DNA of 64,000 nt, from the NCBI GenBank assembly GCA_021298155.1, contig JAJTEN010000001.1, positions 1 to 64,000 of the forward strand. Direction: 5' to 3'. Below are positions 8,268 to 15,544 of this stretch, in pieces. Origin of the DNA: Sphingobacteriales bacterium. Lineage in GTDB: Bacteria; Bacteroidota; Bacteroidia; UKL13-3. A program made the position numbers and the translations under genes. The notes under the pieces were generated by a model, which saw only the letters and a program-made list of their open reading frames with translations, did no database searches and was not told the DNA's origin. Numbering within the stretch: the stretch's first letter is position 1; the number at the start of each line of letters is the position of its first letter.

Positions 8268-9116
8268 CTAGTTTGGACTCCAATTTTTAAATTGCGCATA
8301 CACATTCTCTTTAATTTTCTCATTTTTTTGCAAGGCTAAATCTCTAGAACTTCTTCCATTTCCTAAATAGTAATGAGGAACATAAAATATCCAAAACAAG
8401 GCTGCTTGCGGCCAGTTATAAAAATGTGCGGTTATAATTGTTGCTCCAATTAGAGATCCATTTAGAAAAAAAGCGTTGCCTGCATTATGATAATCTTTTT
8501 GGTAAAGTTGACCCAATCCGGGTAGGAGTAAACTGAGTATTTGTGCTTTTTGGGGAGAAAAATAGCGCATATTTTCATACCTATTTAGCAGGCTATCTAA
8601 ACTTAACTGCTGCTGTGTGGTAGCAAACTTTTTTAAGTGTAGAGCACTTTGCCTTACCAGGTCTTTTCTGTTTAATTTGATTTCACATAGTAGTTTAAAG
8701 TAAGCTAAATTGGCTTGAAAATTATTAATCGAATCATCCATGTAGTTTTCAATTTGTTTGGTGCAATCTTCATAGTTTTCTGCATTAAAATATGCTGCTA
8801 TCTCTATGAGTTTTTGGTCTGAACCTAAATTTGGTTCAGCCCCACTTTTTAAAAATTGAATTATTTCTAAACTCGTATTATAGTGCTGAGCATAAAATGC
8901 TGATAGAAGATAATTGTTTGTGATTGTACTTTTTTCATTTTCTGAGGCAAAAAACCAAATTCTATGATACAACGCATAAGCAGATTGATAGCTTTTTGCA
9001 AAGAATAAACTATCTGCTTCTTGTTTACATTTACTGCTAGTTTGAGCAAATACATTATGTGTTTTACTCGCAAGAAATACGGTAATAGCTAGAATATAAA
9101 TTTGCGTTAATTTCAT
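8268..9116 (-). CDS. Exported helical-repeat protein with C-terminal membrane domain, second of a tandem pair
   Basis: A 282-aa protein. Residues 1-24 are a signal peptide (ending HNVFAQ). Residues about 30-190 are an all-alpha TPR-like region. The C-terminal ~80 residues form a hydrophobic domain beginning LSLLLPGLGQLYQKDY, like the PGxGQ-Y start of DUF5683/TM2-like domains, with two likely membrane hairpins and a charged tail. It resembles the product of 9064-9867 in layout and C-terminal motif, so the two are probably paralogues. It overlaps that gene by 53 bases, its signal peptide being encoded across the upstream gene's last codons. Function unknown; see the YidD-like gene two steps upstream. 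Confidence 0.7.
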   Translation of the reverse strand: MKLTQIYILAITVFLASKTHNVFAQTSSKCKQEADSLFFAKSYQSAYALYHRIWFFASENEKSTITNNYLLSAFYAQHYNTSLEIIQFLKSGAEPNLGSDQKLIEIAAYFNAENYEDCTKQIENYMDDSINNFQANLAYFKLLCEIKLNRKDLVRQSALHLKKFATTQQQLSLDSLLNRYENMRYFSPQKAQILSLLLPGLGQLYQKDYHNAGNAFFLNGSLIGATIITAHFYNWPQAALFWIFYVPHYYLGNGRSSRDLALQKNEKIKENVYAQFKNWSPN

Positions 9117-9867
9117 TTTTTAAATGTTGTATTTCAAAAGCTTTTTTGCGTTTTAAACTGTAATAAGTTCCCCAAATATTTCCTCCGTAAAAAACAGTTC
9201 CCATGAATAGATTGGTAAAGCCAAAAATTGATCGTGCGCCGTAATTATTGAAGCTATATACGCTTAAATAGGTGTGGGTGGCAACCATAAATAGCTGTAG
9301 AAAGCCTTCATAGGTGTTTCCTATCCACATTTTTCCGCTGCCAGGTATAAATATCGCCGCAATAACAGGTTTAATGTTAAGTGGCTTTTTGATTGTTTTT
9401 AATTGGTTGCGTAAAGTATAGAAATAGTTGCTGTCTATCGTATGTTTGTTTTTTAAAATAGTTGCATCTAAAAGTTCTATATTATCTGTTAATAGAAGAT
9501 ATCTTAGCTGCAATTCGGTAGGTAATTTTTTCCAGCTTTTTTCTAATAAATGAAGGGAGTCATATTTAAGGCATAGGCAGGCTAGTTGATGCAATACTTG
9601 GTCAGAGATGCTGTCTTTGTTGAGTGCATTTTGCAGGTAAAAAAAAAGTTTTTCCCTCTCATTTAATTGAGATAAGCAGTGAATGTAGAGACAAAACAGG
9701 CTATCTGTTTGCCCTGAACCAATAGGTGAAACTAAAGCTTCTTGTGCTTGCCTAAATTGCCCTTCACATACCAGGTGTTTTGCATAAGTATAGCTATGTT
9801 CTTTATCAAATAAATCTTGTGCATACAGTTTGCTGCCAATGAATAATAATATAATGAGAATTCTCAT
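9064..9867 (-). CDS. Exported helical-repeat protein with C-terminal membrane domain, first of a tandem pair
   Basis: A 267-aa protein with a short signal peptide (MRILIILLFIGSKLYAQ), a TPR-like helical region (about 25-165), and a C-terminal membrane part starting AAIFIPGSGKMWIGNTYEG. The PGxGxxx motif, following hydrophobic stretches and Lys/Glu-rich tail parallel its downstream neighbour. It starts in an ATGA overlap with the YidD-like gene, so translation is coupled. Its last 53 bases overlap the next gene. I infer a periplasmic repeat domain anchored to the inner membrane. No enzymatic motif is visible. Confidence 0.7.
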   Translation of the reverse strand: MRILIILLFIGSKLYAQDLFDKEHSYTYAKHLVCEGQFRQAQEALVSPIGSGQTDSLFCLYIHCLSQLNEREKLFFYLQNALNKDSISDQVLHQLACLCLKYDSLHLLEKSWKKLPTELQLRYLLLTDNIELLDATILKNKHTIDSNYFYTLRNQLKTIKKPLNIKPVIAAIFIPGSGKMWIGNTYEGFLQLFMVATHTYLSVYSFNNYGARSIFGFTNLFMGTVFYGGNIWGTYYSLKRKKAFEIQHLKNEINANLYSSYYRISCE

Positions 9868-10208
9868 GGCAGGTCTACGGCTTTATTTGCTGCGTTTAAA
9901 GGGTAATCCTCAACTCTTCCATTGCAGCGTAAAAGCCTATCGGCACTTAAAAATAGGGCAATGGGTAAAGGGAATTTTTTGAGCGCTAACTTAGCAAAAT
10001 GTGAACACGATGGATAAAATTGGCAATTAGAGCCATCTTGTGAGGAAATATATTTTTTATATAGCCCATGCAGTCCATTGTATTGCATTAATTCGTGTTT
10101 GTGCGTGTCGTCAAAAATGAGTGATTTTTGCAGTTTTATATCCTGAGAAACGCAAATATTGCATAATAATATAAGGTTAAAAACAAGTGCAAATTTTAAT
10201 TTCCTCAT
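9864..10208 (-). CDS. YidD-like protein carrying an N-terminal signal peptide
   Basis: A 114-aa protein. The core matches YidD (membrane protein insertion efficiency factor): Tyr-rich lead, Cys62-QFYPSCS (Cys68), LALKKFP, and LLRC (Cys94)-NG. Ordinary YidD is a cytoplasmic, membrane-associated peptide of about 70-90 residues encoded by rpmH-rnpA-yidD-yidC. This one instead starts with a cleavable-looking signal (MRKLKFALVFNLILLCNICV then SQD) plus a linker, and it sits with two exported proteins. I infer a periplasmic or membrane-attached paralogue with a different role. First gene of the three-gene unit; only 37 bases separate it from the divergent gene at 10246. Confidence 0.8.
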   Translation of the reverse strand: MRKLKFALVFNLILLCNICVSQDIKLQKSLIFDDTHKHELMQYNGLHGLYKKYISSQDGSNCQFYPSCSHFAKLALKKFPLPIALFLSADRLLRCNGRVEDYPLNAANKAVDLP

Positions 10209-10245: not shown

Positions 10246-11904
10246 ATGAAAAAAGTTTTCCTGCTCTGTTTTGCTTATTTGTTTGTTTTCAGCTTATTAG
10301 CTCAGGAGCCAGCCCGAATTGAGTTCGATGCCGAAAATGCAGTAGGCAATAAATATTATACCTATCCAATTGGTGAGAATGGTTTAATATTAATGTACCA
10401 AGCTGCTGGAAAAGAGAAAGGTAAGTCGAAAGAATTGGCTTATACCCTTAAAAAATTAGATGTAAATTTCAAGGAAATAGGTAAAAGTTCTTTTCCAATA
10501 TCTAAAGGATATACGTTGGATGAAGTAGTAAGTGATGCAAATAATTTGTATGCCTTGTTCTCACCCTCTGCCAATTTTACGAGCTATACCGTATACAAAA
10601 TAGATAAGAAAACCCTTAAAACCACCATTTTTGAGGGTGAATACCCTAAGCATTTAAAATATGAGGGTATGCAGGTTATGAATGGTGTTGTTTATTTGGG
10701 TTTAACAGCGGGTCCAAATCCTTCAACAACTACAATTTTAACGTGTGTTTCTATGCCACTATGTTTTATTCCTATGCTTTTCTATAACCCAAAATATTAT
10801 TCTATGGTAACCGCTTTAGATTTCAATAAAAAAGTTGTTTCAAAAAAAGAATATCAATTGGGTGGAGGTAAAGGACTTACCATAGAATTCATTGATATTT
10901 CTAAAAATGATTCGCTCAATAAAGTTGATTTGTTGCTTTCGTTAGAGGGTAAAAAGGAGTCAAGAACCATATTGAGAGAGTTAAGCGGAACTACACTCGA
11001 TAAGGAAAAGGTATTTAAACTTACTGGAGGAAAAGAAATTGCAAGTGCAAAGGTATTTAGTACAAATCCAACCAATAAAATTGTAATCGGACAATTTAAA
11101 AACAAACGAGGTAAAACAAGGAAAGAACGCAAGGAGGCTGCCAAAAAGGCTCCAGGTGGAATCTTTATTAGTAGTGTAGATAATGGCAAGCAAACCTTTA
11201 CCAAATTGGTTCCATTTTCATCTTTTAAAAATTTCACCATTAGTATTCCTAAAAGTGAAAGCAAAAAGGGGAAATCGAATAGCAAAAGAGAAGCGTCTCA
11301 AAGCCTAGGATTGCAAAGTATCATTTCATTTACTTTTCATGATATATTGGTGAGAGAAGATGAAATAATAGTGTTTGCTGAGCCATATTATCCAACGTAT
11401 CACACAGAAACACGTGTTGTTTATGTAAATGGTAGAGCAACTACGCAAACCGTAACCGTTTTTGATGGCTATAAGTTTCTAGGTGCAATGGTAATGGCTT
11501 TCGACATGGAAGGAAATATGAAATGGGAAAATGGATTTAAAATTTCTGATGGTCCGCTTTCTTTCTCAACCAGCAGAAAATTTGATTTTTACGAAACAGA
11601 AGACCAAGGCATAAAGGTTGTATATAACAATGCTGGGTCTATTTTTTCAAAGGTGATATACAACGATAAGGTAGATTCGGAAGTTGAATTGATGAAAATT
11701 AAGGCTGCCGGTAATAATAAAAAGGTTAAAAATTTGGATTCAAGATATACAGAAGTTAATGGTACTGAGTATTGGTATGATAATTTTTATTTAGCTTTTG
11801 GTATGCAAAAAATTACATCAGATACTAAGGCTAAAGACAGAGCCAAAGATGAAAAGAAAAACCGTACCATATTTTACCTCAATAAAATAGAAATTGAAGA
11901 ATAG
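10246..11904 (+). CDS. Large exported protein of unknown function
   Basis: A 552-aa protein with a clear signal peptide (MKKVFLLCFAYLFVFSLLAQ). The mature part is beta-rich with repeating hydrophobic/charged strand patterns, reminiscent of a beta-propeller, plus two Lys-rich inserts (KNKRGKTRKERKEAAKK near 285-300 and SESKKGKSNSKRE near 340). A hydrophobic stretch at about 165-185 (ILTCVSMPLCFIPMLFYN) could touch the membrane. I do not recognise a family. It is the first gene of a three-gene plus-strand unit with an M48 peptidase and a barrel-like protein, and overlaps the peptidase gene by 11 bases. Confidence 0.7.
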   Translation: MKKVFLLCFAYLFVFSLLAQEPARIEFDAENAVGNKYYTYPIGENGLILMYQAAGKEKGKSKELAYTLKKLDVNFKEIGKSSFPISKGYTLDEVVSDANNLYALFSPSANFTSYTVYKIDKKTLKTTIFEGEYPKHLKYEGMQVMNGVVYLGLTAGPNPSTTTILTCVSMPLCFIPMLFYNPKYYSMVTALDFNKKVVSKKEYQLGGGKGLTIEFIDISKNDSLNKVDLLLSLEGKKESRTILRELSGTTLDKEKVFKLTGGKEIASAKVFSTNPTNKIVIGQFKNKRGKTRKERKEAAKKAPGGIFISSVDNGKQTFTKLVPFSSFKNFTISIPKSESKKGKSNSKREASQSLGLQSIISFTFHDILVREDEIIVFAEPYYPTYHTETRVVYVNGRATTQTVTVFDGYKFLGAMVMAFDMEGNMKWENGFKISDGPLSFSTSRKFDFYETEDQGIKVVYNNAGSIFSKVIYNDKVDSEVELMKIKAAGNNKKVKNLDSRYTEVNGTEYWYDNFYLAFGMQKITSDTKAKDRAKDEKKNRTIFYLNKIEIEE

Positions 11905-14155
11905 GATTTTTTGCTTGCTGTGGCTGATTTTTTTGTCAGTTACTTCGCAAGCCCAAGAATACAAATCTTGGTTTAAAACCATAGCGCCTTTAGGTTCAGA
12001 ATTTACCGATAGGAAAAACCTACTTGCCGATTTAGAATTAGATAAACCTGCTAAAAAATCTAAGGTTAATATTAAGGCTTTTAAAGAGTCGAACGACTAT
12101 TTTATTGATAGGTTTTTAAACTCGGGTAGGGTTGTAGCCTATAGTAAAGCCAATGTGTATTTAGATCAAGTAGCAGATAAACTTTTGCAGCATGATCCTG
12201 CCTTGCGCGCTAAGTTAAAGTTTTATATTGTATATACTTCTGAGGTAAATGCGTTTACCTTCACCAACGGTATGATTTTCGTAAATATTGGCTTGTTTGC
12301 TCGTTTAGAAAATGAAGCACAATTGGCTTTTATTTTGGCACATGAGATTGCACATTATACCAAAAAACATGTTTTTGAACGCTATAAGTTTAGCTCAGAA
12401 TCTGAGGTAGAAGACATGAATGAAGAGGAGTTTTTAGAGGTAGTATTAAGCAAGTTTTCACGAAATCAAGAGTTTGAAGCAGATCAAATTGGCTTCGACA
12501 TTTTTAAAAAATCTGGCTATACCCAATCAGAAGCTGCTAAGGTTTTCGAAATTTTAAAATTATCTGAATATCCTGTTGAAAATAAGAAAATTGAAAAACA
12601 TGTTTTTGAAGGGCAATATTTAAAAGTTCCCTACGCTTTTTATCCAGACACGGCCATACAGATAGTGGTTAATGATGATGAAAACGACTCCACACACACG
12701 CATCCTAGCAGTTGGAAAAGGCAATTAGCCTTGGGTAAACAGATGGATAACAATGCTTCAAATTTTGGTTCACCATTTAAAATAGATGCGAAAGCCTTTG
12801 CCAATATTAAATTAGCTTCTCAATTTGCTTTAAGTGAAATTCTTATACAAGAAAAAGACTATATCAGTTCTTTGTATAATTCAGAGCTATTATTGTCTAA
12901 ATATCCCAACAATGAAACTTTGCTTGGACTCAAAGTAAAAGCATATTATTTCTTACTTGCCAATATTAATGCTGGCAGTAGTTCATCCGTTATTAAAAAG
13001 CCCAAAAAGATTAATGGTGAAATTAGAAAGTTTCATCAGCTTTTTAAAAAGTTAAATATTAAAGAAACCAATACCTTAGCCTTGCGCATTGCTTGGGATA
13101 TTCATTTGGCTAATCCAAAAAACGAAGAGATTAAAGTTTTTACACATGCCATAACCAAAATGTTTGCTGGAAGTGTAAGCACAGATTTGACGCAATTTGC
13201 CAAGCTTAATGAGTATGATGAATCTCTAATTGCATCCTTTTATGCGCCAGATACAACCCAAGAATTTGCCAAGCGCAAGCGATTTAATTCTGGTACGGGT
13301 GCAGTTATCAGAAAATCGAAACCCAAAACCAAAGAAAGTTTTGTTAAGTATGCTATTCCAGATTTAATAGAAAATCAAAATTTTAAAACAGTATTTACGG
13401 CCATTGCCAGAGATGTAATAGTGTATCAAGAAGCCAATCCGAGTGATATTGAACAATACGACGATGTAGAAGAAAATACAGTGTATAACAGACCTAAACC
13501 AGAGGAGAAGAAGAAGAAAAAGGGGTCGGCAAAAAAAATGCTTGAAGCCAGAGAACCGTTTAGGGCAGAGAAAATTTTAATTATCGATGTAAGCAATGTA
13601 AAACTTGATTTAAGCTCTGGGAGTCCGGTAAAATTCTTTTCAATCCAACAAAAGCAAAAAGAATTAGTAAATACTATTCAAAATTGTGCTGAGCTTACTG
13701 GGATGAAGTTAACGGTGTTTAATCCAGTAGATTTAATAGCCAACGATTCTCAATTTTACAATGATAGAAATATCCTTGAAACATGGAAGATGGAGCGCAT
13801 TACCAATCGCCATATGGAAGAAGTTTTGCCATCAAATTATCAAGAAATAGAAGATTTATGTCGACGTTATGGAACCAAATATGTTTGTTTCATCAATACG
13901 CGATCAATTATTCTACCGGTAAATCAAGCGCAATTATTTACCAATGTGCTGTATACTATTTATAATCCACCATTGTTTGCCTTTGTGATGTATAGTGTGT
14001 TTAGGTATAAGAGATATAGCGCCATTTACATGCCCGTATTTGATATAACCACAGGAAAGGTAATGGCCGATTATTCTTCCGAATATGATTATCCAGATCA
14101 TCCAGATTTAATGAAGGCCGAGTTTTACTACTTCTTTAATTCAATCAAAAAATGA
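11894..14155 (+). CDS. Exported M48-family zinc metallopeptidase with long C-terminal extension
   Basis: A 753-aa protein. It has a signal peptide (residues 1-20), then an M48 domain with the HExxH zinc site His150-Glu151-His154 (AHEIAHYTKKH) and the third ligand Glu195 in NQEFEADQIG. After about residue 300 come a helical TPR-like part, a Lys-rich linker (near 540) and a 200-residue C-terminal domain of unknown type. M48 proteins of this sort (BepA/LoiP-like) act in periplasmic quality control of envelope proteins. The start is TTG at 11894, inside the previous gene; no ATG suits the signal peptide. The stop overlaps the next ATG (ATGA). No membrane helices besides the signal. Confidence 0.85.
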   Translation: MKNRIFCLLWLIFLSVTSQAQEYKSWFKTIAPLGSEFTDRKNLLADLELDKPAKKSKVNIKAFKESNDYFIDRFLNSGRVVAYSKANVYLDQVADKLLQHDPALRAKLKFYIVYTSEVNAFTFTNGMIFVNIGLFARLENEAQLAFILAHEIAHYTKKHVFERYKFSSESEVEDMNEEEFLEVVLSKFSRNQEFEADQIGFDIFKKSGYTQSEAAKVFEILKLSEYPVENKKIEKHVFEGQYLKVPYAFYPDTAIQIVVNDDENDSTHTHPSSWKRQLALGKQMDNNASNFGSPFKIDAKAFANIKLASQFALSEILIQEKDYISSLYNSELLLSKYPNNETLLGLKVKAYYFLLANINAGSSSSVIKKPKKINGEIRKFHQLFKKLNIKETNTLALRIAWDIHLANPKNEEIKVFTHAITKMFAGSVSTDLTQFAKLNEYDESLIASFYAPDTTQEFAKRKRFNSGTGAVIRKSKPKTKESFVKYAIPDLIENQNFKTVFTAIARDVIVYQEANPSDIEQYDDVEENTVYNRPKPEEKKKKKGSAKKMLEAREPFRAEKILIIDVSNVKLDLSSGSPVKFFSIQQKQKELVNTIQNCAELTGMKLTVFNPVDLIANDSQFYNDRNILETWKMERITNRHMEEVLPSNYQEIEDLCRRYGTKYVCFINTRSIILPVNQAQLFTNVLYTIYNPPLFAFVMYSVFRYKRYSAIYMPVFDITTGKVMADYSSEYDYPDHPDLMKAEFYYFFNSIKK

Positions 14156-14883
14156 AAAGATTATTGAAAATAACGCTTTTAATGCTATTTATTGGTCTGA
14201 CCCAATATCATGCTTACGCCCAACGTGTGGCTGGGTATATGGGAAAGCGTTTTTTTGTTGGCATTCCAGTTTCCTACATGCCCAATATTTATGGTTTTGT
14301 AAATCAAGAGGCAAAAATAAATTACAATGGGAAAAATCAATTTTACATGTTAAATGCGCTTAAAGTTGGTGCCAGTGTTGGTTTAGTTACTAGTAATTTG
14401 AGATCTGTTGTGCTTGATGTAGATTTTCAAAATACTGGAGTAGCTAAAGAATCGAGTAGTTATTATAACTTTAATGGAACACCAAGTAATTTTGTGTATG
14501 GAAGAAGTAAGCTAATTTCTTATAAATTAAGGGTTCAAAATGCCTTTCAACACTGTGCCCCGGTTGGCGGATATAAAGGTATTACCTTAGGCTTAACTAC
14601 TTTTAATAATTCATACATTAATGAGCAAGGTGCAGAGGTAACAACGGCAGATGAGTTAGATTTTTCTATTGGTTATGCAGGTGGACTCAGGCGTGTGTAC
14701 AAAGATAAAATTGTGGTAGACCTTGGTTTAGAATACAATATGTTTGTTAGGGCCATTGGAGGTATTTTTGATTTTGAATCTGAGGATAAAGCACCCGAGG
14801 AGACTGTTGGTAATTATGCGATCAAGAAGAATGGTTTAAATAGCATCATCGTATGCAAAGCGGCAATTTATCTGCTATTGTAA
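14152..14883 (+). CDS. Exported beta-barrel-like protein of unknown function
   Basis: A 243-aa protein with a signal peptide (MKRLLKITLLMLFIGLTQYHAYA) and alternating strand patterns with aromatic ends typical of small outer-membrane barrels (VGIPVSYMPNIYGF, SIGYAGGLRRVYKDK, VDLGLEYNMFVRAIGG). The last residues are hydrophobic (CKAAIYLLL), as expected for a closing strand, although the final Phe usual for BAM substrates is replaced by Leu. It is coupled to the M48 gene by a 4-base overlap. An inferred role is a client or partner of that peptidase in the outer membrane. Confidence 0.6.
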   Translation: MKRLLKITLLMLFIGLTQYHAYAQRVAGYMGKRFFVGIPVSYMPNIYGFVNQEAKINYNGKNQFYMLNALKVGASVGLVTSNLRSVVLDVDFQNTGVAKESSSYYNFNGTPSNFVYGRSKLISYKLRVQNAFQHCAPVGGYKGITLGLTTFNNSYINEQGAEVTTADELDFSIGYAGGLRRVYKDKIVVDLGLEYNMFVRAIGGIFDFESEDKAPEETVGNYAIKKNGLNSIIVCKAAIYLLL

Positions 14884-14887
14884 TTAT

Positions 14888-15544
14888 TTATTTTTTGCGA
14901 AACTGGTTCCCAAAAACCTTTTCAAATTTCTCTAGCTTCGGCGCAATAACATACTGACAATAACCTTGCGAGCTATTTTGATTATAATAGTTTTGGTGGT
15001 ATGCCTCTGCTTCATAAAAGTTGGTATATGCCGTAATTTCTGTAACAATTGGATCGCTAAAAGCGCCACTGGCATCTAGGTCATTTTTAATTTTTTCAGC
15101 AATTGTTTTTTGTGTTTCATTCAGATAAAATATAGCAGATCTATATTGTGTCCCTATGTCGTTTCCTTGGCGGTTTAAGGTTGTTGGGTTGTGTGTTTGC
15201 CAAAATACAGAGAGCAAAGTTTCAAATGAAACCTCTTGTGGGTTATAGATTAATCTGATTACTTCTGCATGTCCAGTTGTGCCCTCACAAATTTCTGTAT
15301 AAGTTGGGTTTACAACGCTACCACCACTATATCCTGAAACAATTTGTTTAATACCAGGCACGCGCTGAAATACGGCTTCTACACACCAAAAACAGCCTGC
15401 ACCCAAAATCGCAGTATCTAAATTTGAATCTTTTATTTGCTCTGTCATGATATTCGTTTTTAATTTTTTGTTTTTATTGTCTGATTGAGATTGGCAAGAT
15501 ATACCCAATAAAATAATTGTACTTATAATAATATGTTGTATCAT
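14888..15544 (-). CDS. msrA: Peptide methionine sulfoxide reductase MsrA, lipoprotein form
   Basis: A 218-aa protein. The catalytic GCFWC is at residues 50-54 (Cys51 nucleophile); a C-terminal Cys in SSQGYCQYV is the likely resolving residue. The N-terminus is a lipoprotein signal with lipobox ILLGISC (Cys17), so the enzyme is anchored in the envelope rather than cytoplasmic. It reduces methionine-S-sulfoxide in proteins. An internal ATG (MTEQIKDS, residue 33) could yield a cytoplasmic form, but the signal in front is well formed. It ends 4 bases from the convergent gene at 14883 and is followed upstream by an unrelated redox cluster. Confidence 0.93.
   Translation of the reverse strand: MIQHIIISTIILLGISCQSQSDNKNKKLKTNIMTEQIKDSNLDTAILGAGCFWCVEAVFQRVPGIKQIVSGYSGGSVVNPTYTEICEGTTGHAEVIRLIYNPQEVSFETLLSVFWQTHNPTTLNRQGNDIGTQYRSAIFYLNETQKTIAEKIKNDLDASGAFSDPIVTEITAYTNFYEAEAYHQNYYNQNSSQGYCQYVIAPKLEKFEKVFGNQFRKK

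Follow-up and report, generated by a model that had tools for sequence, protein, structure and literature searches.

How YidD, a small and very widespread protein, works is poorly understood. According to passages in PMC8082313 and PMC3573977 that cite Yu et al. 2011, the E. coli protein has been cross-linked at the site of Sec/YidC insertion and counts as a putative insertion efficiency factor. In a 64,000-nucleotide stretch of DNA from a Sphingobacteriales bacterium (contig JAJTEN010000001.1, positions 1 to 64,000; hereafter the window), a sequence-only reading had noticed a YidD core placed behind a signal peptide and next to two further exported proteins. The question raised by this locus is whether it holds an ordinary YidD in an unusual place or a separate, exported form with partners of its own and, if the latter, what such a set of genes might do.

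The YidD-like protein and its two partners

All three open reading frames claimed for the region 8268–10208 lie there on the minus strand, with the following features:

9864..10208, minus strand: exported YidD-like protein, 114 aa (conserved family alignment A1)
10146..10208, minus strand: its predicted signal peptide, residues 1–21, with cleavage before Q22, which is invariant in 18 homologues
9918..10064, minus strand: its YidD core, residues 49–97 (the extent of the Pfam match), with C62, C68, and C95
9064..9867, minus strand: partner B, an exported TPR protein with a C-terminal PGxGK..Y domain, 267 aa (profile A2 against solved TPR proteins)
9097..9387, minus strand: the PGxGK..Y...FYxGNI C-terminal domain of B, about residues 161–257, with P175, G178, G210, Y227, and N230 invariant in 18 sequences
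8268..9116, minus strand: partner C, a paralogous exported TPR protein, 282 aa, present in 44 of 50 loci
8289..8558, minus strand: the DUF5683/TM2-like C-terminal domain of C, about residues 187–276 (just under the PF18935 cut-off)

The first of these proteins matches both the Pfam model PF01809 (E = 6e-14, 52 bits, cut-off 27) and the NCBIfam model TIGR00278 (52.4 bits, cut-off 40), and the cysteines of its mature part are found at positions 62, 68, and 95. Its N-terminus reads MRKLKFALVFNLILLCNICVS up to the predicted cleavage site and QD after it, as in a signal peptide. For comparison we used 50 exported forms and 26 canonical YidDs; a rough script that looks for a hydrophobic stretch followed by [AGSC] directly before Q was positive for 46 of the 49 exported forms on which it was run versus 1 of the 26 canonical ones. 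C62 and C68 are invariant (50/50 exported forms), while C95 is kept in 22 of the 50, including the window protein. The claim of a three-cysteine YidD core behind a signal peptide is borne out by these scores, residues, and motifs, and the prediction that the protein carries a cleavable-type export signal is well supported. A search of PDB sequences with the exported YidD family gave no match, and an AlphaFold model built from two sequences (pLDDT 40) was too poor to use.

Behind a signal-like start, both B and C have a TPR region and then, at the C-terminal end, a PGxGxxY domain. The TPR region was recognized by comparing the B family profile (A2) with solved and consensus TPR structures (E = 5e-25), and in the C homologue of locus L038 by the TPR_2 model (39 bits, cut-off 27), the same homologue having weak matches to TM2 and DUF5683. 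C itself scores 24.3 bits against PF18935 (DUF5683), below the cut-off of 26.7, and B gave no match to the DUF5683 and TM2 Pfam models. A BLASTP comparison of the two window proteins was not significant (E = 0.80); profile-profile comparison with hhalign aligned them over 265 columns at 99.5% probability (E = 3e-23), so that B and C are clearly paralogues, visible as such at the profile level only. Modeling of B with AlphaFold from two sequences gave a pLDDT of 64, too poor to use, and a fold search of the PDB with this model returned nothing at E ≤ 0.001; a tblastn search of plasmids with a B homologue gave no match.

The sequence-only reading had described both partners as ATGA-coupled to the YidD-like gene and as sharing a TPR-like region and a membrane domain. 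The coupling holds for the first junction, where the stop of the YidD-like gene and the start of B share ATGA (4 bp overlap), and fails for the second, where B and C overlap by 53 bp instead. The shared architecture stands through the profile-level paralogy, and the C-terminal region is likely a membrane domain; that assignment is not secure, because the domains are only moderately hydrophobic. As in the DUF5683 (PF18935) and TM2 (PF05154) proteins, the PGxGxxY motif opens the C-terminal domain, but B and C score below the curated cut-offs of these families and have a signal peptide and TPRs ahead of the domain. With membrane-anchored TPR scaffolds such as those of the LapB-like type they have the profile-detected repeats in common; unlike these, they form a dedicated paralogous pair, and there is no sequence relation beyond the repeat.

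Separation from canonical YidD and conservation of the gene set

A second, classical yidD, for which the sequence-only reading had proposed a search at rnpA, is present in the same genome (G000:C16, 75 aa) and overlaps the end of rnpA, while the window gene lies outside the rnpA-yidC cluster; the window gene is therefore not the ordinary YidD. The two have the same domain (window residues 49–97), and the exported form differs by its signal peptide, its TPR partners, and the missing rnpA-yidC context. Canonical YidD has three cysteines with the motifs CRxxPTC and GxDP, whereas the window protein keeps the three cysteines without CR and GxDP. This holds more widely: the exported forms retain C-x5-C together with the Y, P, and R positions of the core, have lost the Arg that follows the first Cys in canonical YidD (CR) as well as the GxDP motif, and in 48 of 50 cases have gained an Asp before Arg. 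In 25 of the 50, mainly relatives from other classes, the third Cys is replaced by Asp. Since canonical Arg, Gly, and GxDP positions are lost, the activity of the exported YidD may have changed. In a tree of the 69-column core, exported and canonical YidDs of this sample separate completely (support 0.998). The Asp-type exported YidDs of loci L049–L070 have an acidic DxDGDN loop ahead of the first Cys, and for this loop and the Asp change a metal site or a disulfide is possible.

Among 60 relatives, a search with YidD alone found 17 exported-YidD loci, all of which (17/17) have B just downstream in the same orientation; C is also present, save in L029, where the contig ends, and in L036. Three short canonical YidDs among the loci of the relatives have no TPR partner beside them. 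We then considered a phylum sample of 297 genomes in which the YidD and B profiles were searched independently. At least two YidD matches occurred in 36 genomes, of which 33 had a strong B match, compared with none of the 261 genomes with fewer than two YidDs (Fisher p about 1e-40 for YidD count versus B presence across the 297 genomes, with relatedness ignored). In the three exception genomes the second YidD lacks a signal peptide, and B is missing. Besides the window there are 32 B loci, each with an exported YidD adjoining B or fused to it. The proposed check across Bacteroidota has thus found the gene set conserved, the exported YidD with B being present in all 17 loci of the relatives and in 33 of the 297 genomes. 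Neither of the outcomes that would have counted against the sequence-only reading, a lone yidD and a gene order without conservation, was observed.

Over 50 loci the gene order is fixed and the genes mostly overlap, the spacing being mostly –60 to +25 bp. Four distant loci (L075 and L078–L080) have one TPR partner and no C. In L075 (6599–7801) a single frame of 400 aa runs from signal peptide through YidD and TPR to PGxGxxY, a natural fusion that is the only hint of a direct interaction. The gene context varies between classes while the unit stays intact, which argues against mere hitch-hiking. Judged from these comparisons, the unit and its export signal are very probably real. One genome (G034) has two exported-YidD units, L032 of the M48 type and L039 of the LolA-like type. 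Extra YidD-like copies with neither signal peptide nor TPR partners lie at L088:988–1203, L114:5383–5739, and L115:5101–5439.

A literature search on an exported YidD or a YidD-TPR gene set, also under DUF5683, found no description, most subscription papers and all preprints lying outside its coverage. The secreted YidDs of the Bacteroidota sample would accordingly form a subfamily with partners of its own for which we found no earlier description, and the presence in many Bacteroidota of a second, exported YidD beside one or two related repeat proteins points to an undescribed envelope machine. When the exported forms receive the automatic label “membrane protein insertion efficiency factor YidD”, this probably misleads.

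Genes adjoining the unit

Ten loci have a 230–250-aa exported protein (family A4) encoded codirectionally and directly or nearly directly upstream of the unit; within the 60 relatives, all seven occurrences of the family lie just upstream of the unit, with a small gene between in L036. The example given here was taken from L038:

L038:2656–3375: exported A4 family protein, upstream of the unit; nine other loci are alike (alignment A4)

LolA, LolA_like, DUF4292, and DUF2092 form one superfamily, and the A4 members match these models below threshold (Pfam E 0.007–0.035). The likeness to the LolA/LolB superfamily carriers, which concerns the A4 loci rather than the window, consists of such weak model matches and was not confirmed by profile comparison (hhalign against 13 LolA sequences of relatives, 8% probability). 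We therefore treat the A4 family as a lead to a LolA-like carrier. No A4 member was found in the window genome, which has one ordinary LolA elsewhere. Upstream of the LolA-like gene, L033:3581–4039, L038:2220–2666, and L074:1456–1869 encode small exported proteins whose C-terminal segments are hydrophobic and which have no family match above cut-off. Separate TM2-domain genes adjoin the unit in five loci, e.g., L037:6346–6978, L039:8029–8451, and L042:3922–4359.

In the window, the unit has divergent neighbors on the opposite strand:

10246..11904, plus strand: exported 552-aa protein of no recognized family, conserved next to the unit in five loci, L032 among them
11894..14155, plus strand: exported M48 metallopeptidase (PF01435, 85 bits)
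14152..14883, plus strand: exported 243-aa protein, its gene overlapping the M48 gene by ATGA; a related gene occurs in L029–L032

This neighborhood is common to the loci of the same genus and L032, and in L041 an M48 gene also lies codirectionally upstream of the unit. The 552-aa protein gave no family match, and its homologues are patchy in the relatives and occur also in genomes without the unit, for which reason the three genes, first considered as unit members, were set aside as local context; the 552-aa neighbor is probably no part of the unit. The acyl-CoA dehydrogenase, ACT, DUF711, LemA, and TPM neighbors found in another class were read as vertical gene order rather than function. 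Further along the window (14888–15544) lies a gene whose product, as judged by eye, starts like a lipoprotein and resembles the peptide methionine sulfoxide reductase MsrA.

Possible roles of the unit

That the three genes make up a dedicated envelope complex around a secreted YidD paralogue is a serious proposition, to which we give somewhat less than an even chance. In such a complex, the C-terminal domains of B and C would anchor them in the inner membrane and leave their TPR parts in the periplasm, where the two would keep the small YidD fold pressed to the membrane on its periplasmic side, C62 and C68 forming a periplasmic disulfide. The exported YidD might then help hydrophobic cargo into or out of the bilayer, as canonical YidD supposedly does for YidC on the cytoplasmic side. 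Lipoproteins, lipids, or envelope proteins would be the most likely cargo, a guess made because a dedicated LolA-like protein goes with the unit in one group of loci, and in some lineages the cargo might be passed on to that protein. This cargo-handling mechanism is tentative, and we hold it to be on the doubtful side. The same reserve applies to its fullest form, in which a secreted YidD fold and two membrane-anchored TPR proteins, sometimes with a LolA-like carrier, would insert hydrophobic cargo, extract it, or hand it over at the periplasmic face of a membrane, as a counterpart of the YidC/YidD site on the trans side. If the mechanism is true, Bacteroidota own an extra route for envelope cargo. 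The secreted form, its own partners, the fusion, and the natural loss of a cysteine together make a system for testing the YidD fold apart from YidC.

The unit could also serve a known Bacteroidota export pathway, as an accessory to type IX secretion or lipoprotein sorting that delivers particular outer-membrane cargo. Consistent with this, the SprA translocon occurs in all 33 genomes with the unit, the LolA-like gene is dedicated to some of the loci, and LolA2/LolB2 of F. johnsoniae belong to a pigment operon, whose pathway they are believed to serve (PMC11885536). However, 196 SprA-positive genomes are without the unit, and in the loci examined no T9SS gene was recognized adjoining it. The overlap with SprA is moreover confounded by phylogeny, the listed SprA-negative genomes being mostly of one family, and the nesting of the unit within SprA-positive genomes may be of phylogenetic origin. 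On balance we consider a service to a known pathway unlikely.

Also unlikely, in our estimate, is a real unit whose YidD fold has been co-opted as a structural or metal-binding subunit without any insertion of cargo, e.g., for sensing envelope stress together with the neighboring M48 peptidase. The replacement of the third Cys by Asp in half of the exported forms (25/50) and the loss of canonical motifs would fit such a change of function, as would the M48 gene found beside the unit in L041 and in the group to which the window belongs. Against it, the exported forms retain C-x5-C and further core positions, and the occurrence of the 552-aa gene next to M48 in genomes without the unit makes that neighborhood look independent.

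A lytic or permeabilizing role, with the exported YidD acting on the outer membrane or on membranes outside the cell while B and C restrain it, is very improbable. It recalls the former name of the Pfam family, “haemolytic domain”, which goes back to cell lysis caused by B. subtilis ytjA but was deemed uninformative for YidD orthologues (PMC3573977). No secretion tag was seen, the genes keep their order, and one locus has YidD fused to a TPR protein; a search for defence families found no match beyond weak metallopeptidase ones.

That the window protein is an ordinary YidD, whose N-terminus is long without being a signal peptide and whose partners adjoin it by chance gene order, draws on the above-cut-off score of TIGR00278, an equivalog model, but is refuted to the point of a negligible probability by the canonical yidD behind rnpA in the same genome and the synteny kept across families and classes, together with signal peptides that are kept in homologues and missing from canonical forms and a tree group of its own.
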